Assembly (NCBI GenBank): GCA_944325065.1
Contig: CALUYS010000004.1
Span: 62,001 to 126,000, forward strand
Length of the DNA: 64,000 nucleotides
Direction: 5' to 3'
DNA from: Candidatus Gastranaerophilales bacterium
Lineage (GTDB): Bacteria; Cyanobacteriota; Vampirovibrionia; Gastranaerophilales; Gastranaerophilaceae
This document shows, one piece after another, positions 5,792 to 11,193 of this stretch. The notes below the pieces were generated by a model. It had not been told where the DNA came from. It saw only the letters and a list, made by a program, of their open reading frames with translations, and searched no databases. Numbering within the stretch: the stretch's first letter is position 1; each line of letters opens with the position of its first letter. A program made the position numbers and the translations under genes.

Positions 5792-6916
5792 TTATCTAAA
5801 AATATTAATATACTCTTCAAATACATAAAAGCGATTTCTGTTAAACCCAGTTTTTTCGTGCAATATTCCTACTTCTACAAATGCTTTGAGTAGTCCATTT
5901 ACTGTTGCAGGAGTAATTCCAAGCTCTTCACTTACAAGTTTGGAATTAACTTTGGGTTTAGAATATAATAACTCTAGTAATCTTTGACCATTTGTTGCTT
6001 TTTTACCAATTTTAGTTAATTTATTTTCAACATTTTTTTTGAGCTTTATAATTTCATCAAAAGTTTTGATACTGTTTTTTGATGTTTCAATTACTCCTGT
6101 TAAAAAGAATTTGAGCCATTGAGTAATGTTATCATTCTGTTTTACCATTGAAAGCGAATCATAGTATGACATTCTGTTCCTTTCAAAAAAGTCAGAAATG
6201 TATAAAACAGGCTTATTTAATAATCCGGTACTAATCAAATAAAGAATTATTAAAAGTCGCCCAGTCCTGCCGTTTCCGTCTAAAAACGGGTGAATCGTCT
6301 CAAACTGATAATGAGCTATACCAGCTCTGATAAGTTCCGGTACTTGTATGTATTCATTATGCAAAAATTTTTCAATATCACTTAGTAAATCAGGTAAAAG
6401 ATTAGGTTCAGGGGGAATAAAAAAAGCATCCTGTAAAGATGAACCACCAATCCAATTCTGTGTTTTACGGATTTCTCCAGGAGTCTTATGTGTGCCTCTG
6501 ACACCCTGTAAAAGTATTTTATGTGCTTCTTTTAAAAGCCTCATCGAAAGGGGTAACTCATTTAACATTTCTACTGAATAATTAATAGCTTGAATGTAAT
6601 TTTGTACTTCATGCCAATCATCTCTTAATTCAGGTTTTACTTGCTCAACAGGAGATATTGCATCTTCAAAAGTTGTTCTTGTCCCTTCAATTCGATTTGA
6701 ATTTGTAGCTTCTTTTGTTGCATACATCTTAATAAAAAAATCAATATCAGGAATTAAATCAGCATAAGAATTTAGTTTGCCTAACCACAGACTTGCGTTT
6801 TGAAGTAAGCTTGATAATTCTTCTAACTTCCAATTAATATCTTCATTAATAAATGATGGTACAAAAGGCTTGTAACCTTTATGCAAAATATATGTCCCTG
6901 CTTTATATTCTTTCAT
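5792..6916 (-). CDS. Fic family protein with C-terminal winged helix (predicted AMPylase)
   Basis: This 374-residue protein has the Fic active-site motif HPFLDGNGRTGR at residues 209-220, with catalytic H209. Fic enzymes transfer AMP, or less often another nucleotide moiety, to target proteins. A candidate inhibitory helix motif S-N-R-I-E-G lies at residues 73-78. That matches the N-terminal (S/T)xxxE(G/N) class, in which the enzyme silences itself until released. The last 75 residues form a winged-helix-like region (VSEELGITPATVNGLLKAF), so it may bind DNA or regulate its own gene. This is the common Fic-wHTH architecture. The target is unknown. It opens an accessory block containing a methylase and a nuclease, so a defence or stress role is possible but not shown. 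Confidence 0.9.
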   Translation of the reverse strand: MKEYKAGTYILHKGYKPFVPSFINEDINWKLEELSSLLQNASLWLGKLNSYADLIPDIDFFIKMYATKEATNSNRIEGTRTTFEDAISPVEQVKPELRDDWHEVQNYIQAINYSVEMLNELPLSMRLLKEAHKILLQGVRGTHKTPGEIRKTQNWIGGSSLQDAFFIPPEPNLLPDLLSDIEKFLHNEYIQVPELIRAGIAHYQFETIHPFLDGNGRTGRLLIILYLISTGLLNKPVLYISDFFERNRMSYYDSLSMVKQNDNITQWLKFFLTGVIETSKNSIKTFDEIIKLKKNVENKLTKIGKKATNGQRLLELLYSKPKVNSKLVSEELGITPATVNGLLKAFVEVGILHEKTGFNRNRFYVFEEYINIFR

Positions 6917-7464
6917 TATAATTCTGCCATATTTTAGTTTAGATTACTATTGTAAATTATAGCATATTTATAATTTAGTTTCAACGGATTAAGCAATATT
7001 TTCAATCAACCAAGTTCGGAACTCGACAATTCTATGGTAAATTAGTAAAAAGTATGAGGGTTTTTAAACTCGTTTTTTTTATTATATAGATAACAAGGAA
7101 ATAAGCTCTTGTGCATTTTACATTTTTTTTACACAGAGTGGATATTTTTTTTGTTAAAAGAATATTTATTTTTGCAAGCAAAAATTTAAGTTTCGTTTAA
7201 TGCAAAAAATCCAATACAAATTATATGCGAGGTAGATAAATTGTCAATATTTAAATTTGGGATTTATATACGAGTTTACCCTAAATATGAAACATTCGTC
7301 ACTACGAGCTTTAGCGTAGCAACCGTGAAAACTATACTCAACACAAATAAGATAATTGGATTGCCCCAGAAATCAAAGATTTTCTCACAATGACGATAAG
7401 TTTATGTAAAATTGTATATAGTCGCCTTAAATTTTATGTTTTAATAATTTTGTGAGGGTTGAAA
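6917..7464. other. Intergenic region with an imperfect palindromic repeat
   Basis: This is about 550 bases without a supported gene, between the divergent Fic and methylase genes. Around 7057-7081 a weak GAGGGTTT/AAACTC hairpin precedes a T-run and may be a terminator. The right third (7297-7395) is a dispersed-repeat-like palindrome listed separately. The methylase ribosome site GAGGG lies at 7454-7458. I see no RNA gene here. Confidence 0.6.
7297..7395. repeat. Imperfect inverted repeat, MITE-like
   Basis: The left end reads CGTCACTACGAG and runs to GCAACC. The right end, read on the other strand, reads CGTCATTGTGAG and runs to GCAATCC. The two ends are therefore degenerate inverted copies of one module around an AT-rich middle. 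From memory, the CGTCATTGCGAG...GCAATCC module occurs as a dispersed intergenic palindrome in several unrelated bacteria. Its base composition is clearly less AT-rich than the surrounding spacer. Only one copy is visible in this window. Confidence 0.5.
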
Positions 7465-8667
7465 ATGGCGAATGATAATTTGAAAAAAGCAAAAAAAGCC
7501 AAAAATGATGAATTTTATACTCAATGGGCTGATATTGAAAAAGAGATAATGGCATATATTGATTATAATTCTAATGTTTTTAGAGATAAAACGATTTTAC
7601 TCCCTTGTGATGATCCTGAATGGTCAAATTTTACAAAATTCTTTGCTCAAAACTTTGAAGCATTTGGTTTAAAAAAGTTAATTAGCACAAGCTATGCTTA
7701 TGAAAGCAAGAACGTAAATATGCCTTATCAAATTTCATTATTTGAAAAACAAGCACCTCATTTTGATCCTAATATTAATAAGGTAAGAGGCAAGATTTTC
7801 ACTTTAGAAAATGATACGAATCAGAACGGTGTTATTGATATAGAGGATTTAAAATGGCAATATTTAGAAGGCAATGGAGATTTTAGAAGCGATGAAGTTA
7901 AAAAGTTACGGGATGAAGCAGATATTATAATTACGAATCCACCTTTTAGCTTGTTTAGAGAGTTCTTAGCTTGGATTGTCGAAGCTGATAAACAATTTGC
8001 TATTATTGGAAATATGAATGCAATCACATATAAGAAAGTTTTTCCTTTATTGAAAAATAACAAAATGTGGTTGGGAAATAGGTTTAATAGGCGAGTTAAT
8101 GGTAAAAATATGATTTTTGGTGTTCCAAATAACTATCCGATGACTGGAACAGAAGTTGAAATTGACAAAGATGGTCGTAAATATATTGCTGTTGCAGGTA
8201 CAGGGTGGTTTACTAATATAGAACACGGTAGACGTCATCAACCTTTACAGTTAATGACTATGGCAGACAATATTAAGTATAGCAAACATAAAGAAGTCAA
8301 AGGACAGGAATATAAAAAATATGATAATTATAATGCAATAGAGGTTCCTTTTACTGATGCTATTCCTAGTGATTACAATGGTGTAATGGGGGTTCCTATT
8401 AGTTTTCTTGATAAATATAATCCAGAACAATTTGATATAGTTGATTTAGGAATCGTTGGAAGTTGTGAGTTTACTTGTAATAAAAGGATGGAAATACTAG
8501 ACAAACAAGGAAATCCTACTGGTAAATATACATATAATGCAAAAGGAACTCTATATACTAAGTTTAATCCACAGCGAGATAAATACCCTGCATTTAGAGA
8601 TGTTGAAACGGGAGAACTATATTCAAGCATATATGCAAGAATCCTAATCAAGAAAAGAGGTGTCTAA
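7465..8667 (+). CDS. EcoRI-family adenine-specific DNA methyltransferase
   Basis: This 400-residue protein resembles M.EcoRI-type N6-adenine methylases. It has the N-terminal block [15 protein letters not shown], the cofactor-region segment [12 protein letters not shown], the catalytic motif NPPF in [16 protein letters not shown], and a run of family-like blocks after it. It should methylate adenine in a short DNA site using S-adenosylmethionine. ATG at 7465 is chosen because GAGGG (7454-7458) is correctly spaced; a TTG two codons earlier is less likely. Its stop codon overlaps the start of the DUF262-HNH gene by one base, so the two are probably translated together. No separate EcoRI-like endonuclease is present. 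The region is less AT-rich than its neighbours, which fits acquisition by transfer. Confidence 0.88.
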
Positions 8668-9824
8668 TGAAAACAGAATTACACACAAAGTGGACTGTTG
8701 AAGATATATGTAAAGGTTTTGTTTATAATGAGCTTGAGGGCAAAGGCTTATATGGTATGAGTGGCAAGCTTACTATTCAGCCCGAATATCAACGAAATTA
8801 TATCTATGCAGACGGAAAGAAAGATGTAGCTGTTATTGAAAGCATATTAAAAGGCTATCCAATAGGATTGATATACTTTAATAAGAATGGTGAACAACTG
8901 GAAGTACTAGACGGACAGCAGAGAATAACATCATTAGGTCGTTTTGTTACAAGCAAGTTTGCTATAGTTGATAATGGAGTTCCTCAATACTTTAGAGGCT
9001 TATCGGAAGACAAGAAAGCGAAAATCCTTAATACAAAACTGCTTATCTATGTATGTGAAGGAGAAGAATCTGAAATTAAAGAATGGTTTAAGACAATTAA
9101 CATTGTTGGCGTACCTCTGAATAAGCAAGAAATTTTGAATGCTATATATTCAGGAGAATTTACAACTCTAGCAAAAGAAGAATTTAGCAACTCGCAAAAT
9201 ACTTTTGTCAATAAATGGAGTGCTTATATTAGTGGTGTTGTTAATCGTCAAGATTTCTTAGCCTGTGCTTTAGATTGGGTTAGCAAGGGTAATGTTGAAG
9301 AGTACATGTCTAAACATAGACACGATAATAATATAAATGAACTAAAAACCTATTTTAATTCTGTTATAGACTGGGTAGATAGTATATTTATAAATGTTTA
9401 TGATGAGATGAGGGGGTTGGAGTGGGGCAGGCTTTATGAAACATACCATAAGCAACCTTACGATAGCCAAATTTTAGCTAATAAAGTTTTAAAATTGTAT
9501 AATGATGAGTTCATTAGAAACAAAAAGGGCATTTTCGAGTATGTTCTTGGTGGGTGTGTGAATAGCAAACTTTTGGAAGTTCGTATATTTGATGATAGAG
9601 ATAAGAAAACTGTCTATAACAAACAAACAGCAGAAGCTAAAGAAAAAGGAATCTCAAATTGTCCATTATGTGCTTTGGGAAATGATAACAATAAAACTAG
9701 AATATGGCAAATCAAAGAAATGGATGCTGACCATGTTACTGCTTGGTCAAAAGGTGGTGCAACCGATATAAAAAATTGTCAAATGCTATGTAAAACACAT
9801 AATCGAGCTAAAGGAAATAAATAA
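8667..9824 (+). CDS. DUF262 domain protein with C-terminal HNH nuclease
   Basis: This 385-residue protein has an N-terminal DUF262 (ParB-like) domain with the signature DGQQR at residues 82-86 in [16 protein letters not shown]. In GmrSD-type systems this domain binds or hydrolyses nucleotides and controls a nuclease. The C-terminus is a zinc-HNH domain: CPLC (C332, C335), DADH (D355, H356), N370, then C375 and H378. The gene starts inside the stop of the EcoRI-family methylase (TAATG), which points to translational coupling and one function. It may be the restriction partner of that methylase, or a modification-sensing nuclease. It has HNH rather than the DUF1524 nuclease of classical GmrD. 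No third subunit is visible. Confidence 0.85.
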
Positions 9825-9986: not shown

Positions 9987-9993
9987 AAGAGGA
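9987..9993 (+). promoter_or_regulatory. Ribosome binding site upstream of UmuC-like gene
   Basis: AAGAGGA is a good Shine-Dalgarno sequence but no ATG, GTG or TTG follows in the polymerase frame. Nine bases downstream is an in-frame ATT (10003). The bases 9995-10005 read ATAGTAAAATT, one base short of an expected ATGAGTAAAATT. Confidence 0.55.
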
Positions 9994-10002
9994 CATAGTA
10001 AA

Positions 10003-11193
10003 ATTATTGCACTTATTGATTGTGATGCTTTTTTTGTATCTTGTGAACAAGCTAGGCATCCTAAACTTAAAAATAAAGCTGTATGCGTTTTAAGTAATAA
10101 TGACGGTTGTATAATTGCTCGTTCAAAGGAAGCAAAAAAACTTGGAATTAAAATGGGAGAGCCTCTTTTTCTTGCTCAAAAAGAACAGGCTGATGTTATT
10201 TATATTTCTTCTGATATTGATTTTTATGAAGAAATGTCAAAACGGGTTATGCAAAAGATTGAAAATTATACGAAAATAGTCGAAAAATATTCAATTGACG
10301 AAGCTTTTGTTGATTTAACTGGTTTAAGGGGGCTTTATCATAAAAGTTATGAAAAAATAGCAAAGATGATAAGGAATGATATATATAATGAACTTAAAAT
10401 ACCTGTTTCAATTGGTATAAGTGCTACAAAAACATTAGCAAAATTTGCTTGTGAGAAAGCTAAATTAAAAGATAGTGGAATTTATTTTATTAAACCTAAA
10501 AATATAACAAAAGAGCTTGAAAATGTGAATGTTGATGAAATATGGGGCATTGGTAAAAATACTTGTGCTCTTTTGAATAAGTTTGGGGTATATAAAGTTT
10601 CTGAATTTGTTAGTTTAACAGACTCTTTTTTAAGAAAATATTTTAATAAACGTAGTATTGAAATGAAAGAAGAATTAAAGGGTAATATTATATACAAAGT
10701 TACAAATGTTACAAAAACTCCTAAATCTATACAAAAAACATGCTCCTTTCCTCAATTTACAAATGATGTAAATTATATTAAAAACTGCTTAAACTTTCAT
10801 ATTCATAGAGCTTGTCGAAAATTGAGAGAACTTAATATGCTAAGTGAAATTGTGACAATTGTTTTAAAGAAAAAAGATTATACATTAATTAAAAAAAAAT
10901 ATTACTTAAATAATGAAACGGATTGGGAGTTTCATATTTCAAATATTATAATAAAACTTTTTGATGAAATTTATAATCCAAATGTATTGTATCGTAGCTG
11001 TGGGGTAATATTGTCTGGATTAAAATTAAATACCTCAAGACAGCTTTCTTTTTTTTCTTTAAATCAAAATACAGATAAAATAAAAAAGCTTGAAAATTGT
11101 ATTGATAGTTTAAATATAAAACATGGAAAATATACATTAAGACCTGGGTTTATTTTTACAAATATACAAAATAAAAAATTTCTTCAAATATAA
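10003..11193 (+). CDS. umuC: UmuC-type Y-family DNA polymerase lacking a standard start codon
   Basis: The reading frame is open from 9985 and its translation begins IIALIDCDAFFVSCEQ, the catalytic N-terminus of Y-family lesion-bypass polymerases with the first metal-binding aspartates. The second catalytic motif YSIDEAFVDLTG follows at about residue 105. Helix-hairpin-helix and little-finger regions come next, and the C-terminus carries a UmuC-like LRPG segment. The first standard start codon is ATG at 10153, which would remove the first catalytic block. I therefore place the start at ATT 10003, nine bases after AAGAGGA. A one-base loss from an original ATGAGT is the alternative, in which case the gene is damaged. 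UmuC normally works with UmuD, which is not encoded nearby. Confidence 0.75.
   Translation: MIALIDCDAFFVSCEQARHPKLKNKAVCVLSNNDGCIIARSKEAKKLGIKMGEPLFLAQKEQADVIYISSDIDFYEEMSKRVMQKIENYTKIVEKYSIDEAFVDLTGLRGLYHKSYEKIAKMIRNDIYNELKIPVSIGISATKTLAKFACEKAKLKDSGIYFIKPKNITKELENVNVDEIWGIGKNTCALLNKFGVYKVSEFVSLTDSFLRKYFNKRSIEMKEELKGNIIYKVTNVTKTPKSIQKTCSFPQFTNDVNYIKNCLNFHIHRACRKLRELNMLSEIVTIVLKKKDYTLIKKKYYLNNETDWEFHISNIIIKLFDEIYNPNVLYRSCGVILSGLKLNTSRQLSFFSLNQNTDKIKKLENCIDSLNIKHGKYTLRPGFIFTNIQNKKFLQI

Follow-up and report, generated by a model that had tools for sequence, protein, structure and literature searches.

The M-R gene pair and its surroundings

The window, by which we mean the whole stretch of 64,000 nucleotides that was analysed, comes from contig 4 of an AT-rich host genome of 1.86 Mb. 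We focus here on two consecutive genes, termed M and R, and on the features found in and beside them, which are the following:

5792 to 6916, minus strand: Fic protein (SoFic-like, from profile matches), divergent and accessory neighbour, also found beside M-R in the genus mate G288
7465 to 8667, plus strand: M, M.EcoRI-family adenine methyltransferase of 400 aa, proposed specificity subunit (PF13651, PADLOC MTase_II)
7936 to 7947, plus strand: NPPF catalytic motif of M, aa 158-161, invariant in alignments
8074 to 8211, plus strand: putative TRD1, first hypervariable segment of M, aa 204-249 (pairwise identity, location)
8443 to 8631, plus strand: putative TRD2, second hypervariable segment of M, aa 327-389 (pairwise identity)
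8665 to 8669, plus strand: TAATG, in which the M stop overlaps the R start, translational coupling (from the ORFs)
8667 to 9824, plus strand: R, DUF262 (GmrSD_N, ParB/Srx fold)-HNH nuclease of 385 aa (PF03235 and PF01844, PADLOC, AlphaFold)
8910 to 8924, plus strand: predicted NTP-binding motif DGQQR of R, invariant in 46 aligned sequences
9660 to 9821, plus strand: zinc HNH domain of R, with C332, C335, D355, H356, N370, C375, H378 and N379 (profile, alignment)

The start of M is the ATG at 7465, preceded by a GAGGG ribosome site (the ORF listing opens M at the TTG at 7459), and that of R is the ATG at 8667, with an AGAGGTG ribosome site upstream. M matches the PF13651 profile over practically its whole length (E=5e-125, profile positions 1-344 of 345) and carries the NPPF motif, as expected of a member of the M.EcoRI family, and it also matches the MTase_II model of PADLOC (E=4e-92). 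R matches the GmrSD_N (PF03235, E=7e-21) and HNH (PF01844, E=1e-7) profiles, and the REase_II model of PADLOC, PDLC03418, from position 17 to 372 of 372 (E=3e-81). The pair is thus already recorded, since the PADLOC type II models match both proteins. The NPPF and DGQQR motifs, as well as the C-C/DH/N/C-H-N residues of the zinc HNH, are all intact in the window. The fold of R is predicted well by AlphaFold (pLDDT 88.8), and its best neighbours in Foldseek, all weak (E>0.01), are nucleotide-bound ParB, BrxU and the HNH nuclease 4h9d; the match of R to BrxU (7p9k) is weak both by profile and by fold. The DUF262 domain with its DGQQR motif suggests that R uses NTP, unlike a type II endonuclease, which needs none to cut at or near its site. 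No structure of an M.EcoRI-family protein was found.

The profile search of the host genome found no PF13651 or PF03235 gene other than M and R. An EcoRI endonuclease (PF02963) was not found there by a search that was positive in a genome having one, which agrees with the earlier note, made from the DNA letters, that no EcoRI-like restriction enzyme accompanies the methylase. The same note had taken the pair for a single functional unit because of the TAATG overlap, and this is borne out by the near-universal pairing of the two genes described below; an M-R gap of -1 to a few bases also recurs in relatives. It had furthermore read a lower AT content than that of the neighbours as consistent with transfer. 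The pair does have a GC content of 29-34%, and since that of the neighbouring Fic gene and of the last part of pheS is close to it, composition is a weak proof of transfer. Movement itself is better evidenced by the placement of the module in G288, where Fic, M and R lie together on another contig and the pheS locus is without them. The Fic homologue beside M-R in G288 is 84% identical to that of the window. Fic was considered as a third component and set aside: it travels with M-R within the genus, and a close Fic match was found in just one among the other loci.

On the other side of the pair, a UmuC/DinB-like polymerase directly follows R, at about 9990-11193 of the window. Its ORF as listed starts at 10153 and is without the first ~48 residues of the profile; the DNA just 5' of this start looks coding for the missing residues.

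Distribution of the pair and of its methylase

The pairing was counted in a nuclease-based census of 80 genomic and 80 viral loci, of which 75 and 74, respectively, had enough upstream sequence. Far from being rare, as it might have turned out when the earlier note proposed such a count of adjacent PF13651 and DUF262-HNH genes, adjacency is the rule: M adjoins R in 71 of the 75 genomic loci and in 72 of the 74 viral ones, and it lies one gene further upstream in the other 4 and 2. Not a single R without M was found among these 149 testable loci, and chance co-occurrence is ruled out by the census. The loci bearing R span Bacteroidota, Clostridia, Proteobacteria, Patescibacteria, Anaerolineales, Armatimonadetes and others, and pairs from Actinomycetota appear among complete plasmids. 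M-R cassettes are frequent in bacterial genomes, in plasmids and in prophages. The genes that are inserted between M and R in some loci are of the Bro-N, RhuM, ORF6N and DUF2806 types (L123/L124, L038, L091 and L075). Genes of these types also sit inside type I operons. Their presence here is sporadic, and they were rejected as core parts.

Viewed from the methylase, with lone and edge cases counted by hand, M is paired in 9 of 11 cases in the host's family, in 18 of the 22 that could be counted in a sample of Bacteroidota, and in all 3 in a sample of another phylum. M does not need R, because many methylases of the family stand alone: about 11 do so in cyanobacterial-type families with large genomes, and so do many of the copies in phages. 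The earlier note had also envisaged a separate cognate endonuclease next to such methylases in most relatives. This is not what was found: among the sampled genomes, where an M.EcoRI-family methylase has a partner at all, it is usually the DUF262-HNH nuclease and not EcoRI. A true EcoRI nuclease, encoded upstream, is the partner of the methylase in one Bacteroidota locus (L299). About ten cyanobacterial-type genomes of the host's phylum (L251-L260) contain a PF13651 methylase, highly conserved and some 340-355 aa long, that has no adjoining nuclease and is probably an orphan, perhaps a regulatory one.

Variable methylase segments beside a near-constant nuclease

The two proteins of the pair do not vary in the same manner. 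Over 117 close pairs, much of the M core has a pairwise identity of 0.65-0.8, against 0.17-0.40 for TRD1 and 0.01-0.11 for TRD2 (here aa 331-390 of M), while every ten-residue block of R keeps at least 0.45. The same two troughs of M are found in a distant subfamily (40 pairs), in which the minimum for R is 0.27, in a single block. The identity of R tracks that of the M core (Mantel 0.19, p=0.005), and no correlation was found between R and either TRD, nor between TRD1 and TRD2. Indeed, 297 comparisons share TRD1 without TRD2, and 82 share TRD2 without TRD1.

The replacement is sharpest between close relatives, some of which are known from MAGs or viral contigs. R is identical at 389 of 390 residues between L123 and L124 (TRD1 31%, TRD2 15%), and at 385 of 386 between L029 and L030 (TRD1 30%, TRD2 16%); the M cores of both couples are 95-96% identical, and both TRDs have been replaced as blocks. 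Within the host's family, the window has 96% identity to L263 in R, 93% in TRD1 and 20% in TRD2, and to L261 these values are 95%, 30% and 20%. Similar mixing of TRDs is found on complete isolate plasmids, at an R identity of 71-83%. Two methylases with different TRDs even precede a single R in three loci (L115, L122 and L238). The sampled TRD2 alleles fall into 59 clusters, and that of the window is alone in its own. As a control, six true EcoRI systems were compared: with R at 57-91% identity, their TRD1 remains at 64-95%, equal to or above the conservation of the M core, and their TRD2 motif stays recognisable. The sharp block replacement between near-identical cores, which the EcoRI control does not have, rules out that the hypervariable segments are alignment noise.

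From their variability, reassortment and location, we infer that the two segments are target-recognition modules. For TRD1, this is supported by the residues W184 and H236 of M.EcoRI, which bracket it; we take these for the residues published as W183 and H235, which contact the DNA. A near-constant R is thus found beside many apparently unrelated TRDs, and no nuclease that has a fixed target of its own can fit all of these methylases.

A second kind of variation comes from simple repeats. Long ones are found in M in 9 of 179 non-redundant pairs and in R in 0 of 179; the pair of the window is without any. Five Bacteroidota loci have a tract of G9 or G10 at the same M codons, just 5' of an MGVP motif. 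M is in frame with G9 (L297, L301, L311), and with G10 it is broken beside an intact R (L306, L312). In appearance, these poly-G tracts are ON/OFF switches; in individual cases, a homopolymer frameshift could be an assembly error. Other repeats lie within EcoRI-type TRD2: AG8 in L267, of the host's family, GA13 in L059, seven GAACA units in L117/L180 and CA21 in L143. Overlapping frames follow the repeat, two in L267 and three in each of the others, and every one of them ends in a TRD2-type C-terminus. Two of the L059 modules resemble the sole TRD2 of other loci (82% to L228, 64% to L202), and L203, with AG10, has both L267 modules but reads the other one. Slippage of the repeat would, as we read these frames, change the specificity at the TRD2-repeat loci; no locus or strain was seen in two repeat states among the loci sampled. 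L203, having a repeat and two frames in a locus without R, is excluded from the 9 of 179, as is the G8 of L091, which appears to lie 3' of the M stop. L138/L353 were rejected as a switch, having a tandem TRD2 copy but no long repeat.

A methylase that may steer its nuclease

The reading we prefer, with a probability of roughly 0.74, is that of a two-gene restriction-modification system in which M would be both the modification enzyme and the sole specificity subunit, and in which R would be steered by M. M would read its target through the two modules, TRD1 and TRD2, and methylate adenine in the host DNA. R would have no target recognition of its own and would be recruited to, or licensed at, those unmethylated sites that M has bound; there its DUF262 domain, of the ParB fold, would bind or hydrolyse NTP and its HNH domain would nick or cut. 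The simplest account would be a restriction complex of M and R. We infer this complex, as well as the NTP step, the cleavage chemistry, the existence of a target sequence and a role in phage defence. The dependence of R on M is suggested both by the near-identical R found beside apparently unrelated M specificities and by the loci in which a frameshifted M precedes an intact R. These same two observations speak against the proposal of the earlier note that R by itself spares DNA methylated by its own methylase, and against a toxicity of R without M.

The main rival is a licensing of the SspE type, in which R would not be bound to M but would be stimulated by its methyl marks, and would nick unmarked DNA non-specifically. 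A DUF262 domain with DGQQR and a His-Me finger nuclease are indeed common to R and SspE/BrxU, and a nuclease depending on the activity of M would also tolerate both the changes of TRD and the states with M off and R intact. However, R would then be required to recognise m6A irrespective of the surrounding sequence, unlike SspE with its one fixed modified motif. A pocket for reading modifications was not identified, and the fixed pairing of the genes is explained no better. We consider this rival unlikely.

Quite improbable, in turn, is a conventional type II system, in which R would recognise a short sequence of its own and be blocked there by the methylation of M. It is the class in which PADLOC places both proteins, M.EcoRI is itself a type IIP methylase, and R and M are separate proteins. 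Against it stand the M proteins whose TRDs are unrelated although the R beside them is practically identical, the lack of any hypervariable segment in R, the tandem M-M-R loci, and the apparent M-off/R-intact loci, since these ought to be lethal. True EcoRI systems do not behave as this cassette does. The constant R and exchanged TRDs, set against the EcoRI control, thus indirectly argue against an endonuclease target that is independent of the methylase. Least probable of all is a type IV system like GmrSD or BrxU, in which R would attack foreign modified DNA with M as a passenger or shield: its DUF262 domain and weak matches to BrxU 7p9k are outweighed by a C-terminus that is a zinc HNH and not DUF1524, by its permanent pairing with M in the 149 testable loci, which argues against the cleavage of modified DNA only, and by the diversification of M, which a passenger role does not explain. 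The earlier suspicion that the pair is unlike standard type II and type IV systems is supported.

What is new is the evidence that a two-module methylase may hold the specificity and that the nuclease may follow; we found no open-access paper on the M-R pair (REBASE and subscription journals lay outside the search). The cassette is counted as type II today, and its targets are thus sought under what would be the wrong model. Should the nuclease be steered by the methylase, swapping the TRDs of a small enzyme can be expected to yield new specificities in a predictable way, M.EcoRI can be read as modular, with two recognition modules, and a two-gene system becomes available for testing what DUF262 NTPases do in restriction. 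On balance, and with less assurance than for the steering itself, we also favour a broader reading: two freely reassorting modules would steer a helicase-free, ParB-fold NTPase-HNH effector, and some members would slip among two to three alternative modules, so that the cell would switch its restriction specificity without DNA rearrangement, in a type of restriction-modification not previously separated from the others. The members with a frame-switched TRD2 would then be a new means of varying epigenetic and defence specificity.

As a working label, the system could be called type III (Mod+Res)-like or type I-like, with an unrelated, helicase-free effector. In type III enzymes, the methylase binds the site and is accompanied by one helicase-nuclease subunit (PMC4005696), and the methylase gene of some systems contains simple repeats (PMC3498834, PMC8125046). 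Judged by sequence only, the M-R cassette likewise has two genes, a variable recognition part in the methylase and a constant effector to which the methylase would give its specificity. The effectors differ, Res being an SF2 helicase with PD-(D/E)XK and R a DUF262-HNH protein with no helicase, and so does the methylase, here of PF13651 with two TRDs. With type I (HsdS), it has in common two independently reassorting TRDs and several specificity units per nuclease, but these TRDs lie within the methylase, and neither HsdS nor the HsdR translocase is present, in relatives either. EcoRI has a homologous methylase, and EcoRI-type TRD1 and TRD2 are found as alleles in the cassette; its nuclease is unrelated, its gene order is opposite, and the TRD1 linked to EcoRI is conserved whereas both TRDs are exchanged in the cassette. 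GmrSD, BrxU and SspE (DUF262 and DUF1524) share with R the ParB/Srx-fold NTPase with DGQQR and a His-Me finger nuclease; R differs in its zinc HNH, in being much shorter and in always coming with a methylase. In BREX, finally, the PglX/BrxX methylase holds the TRD and is needed for restriction (PMC12707154), but that system has six shared genes and no DNA cleavage has been seen, compared with two genes and an HNH nuclease here.
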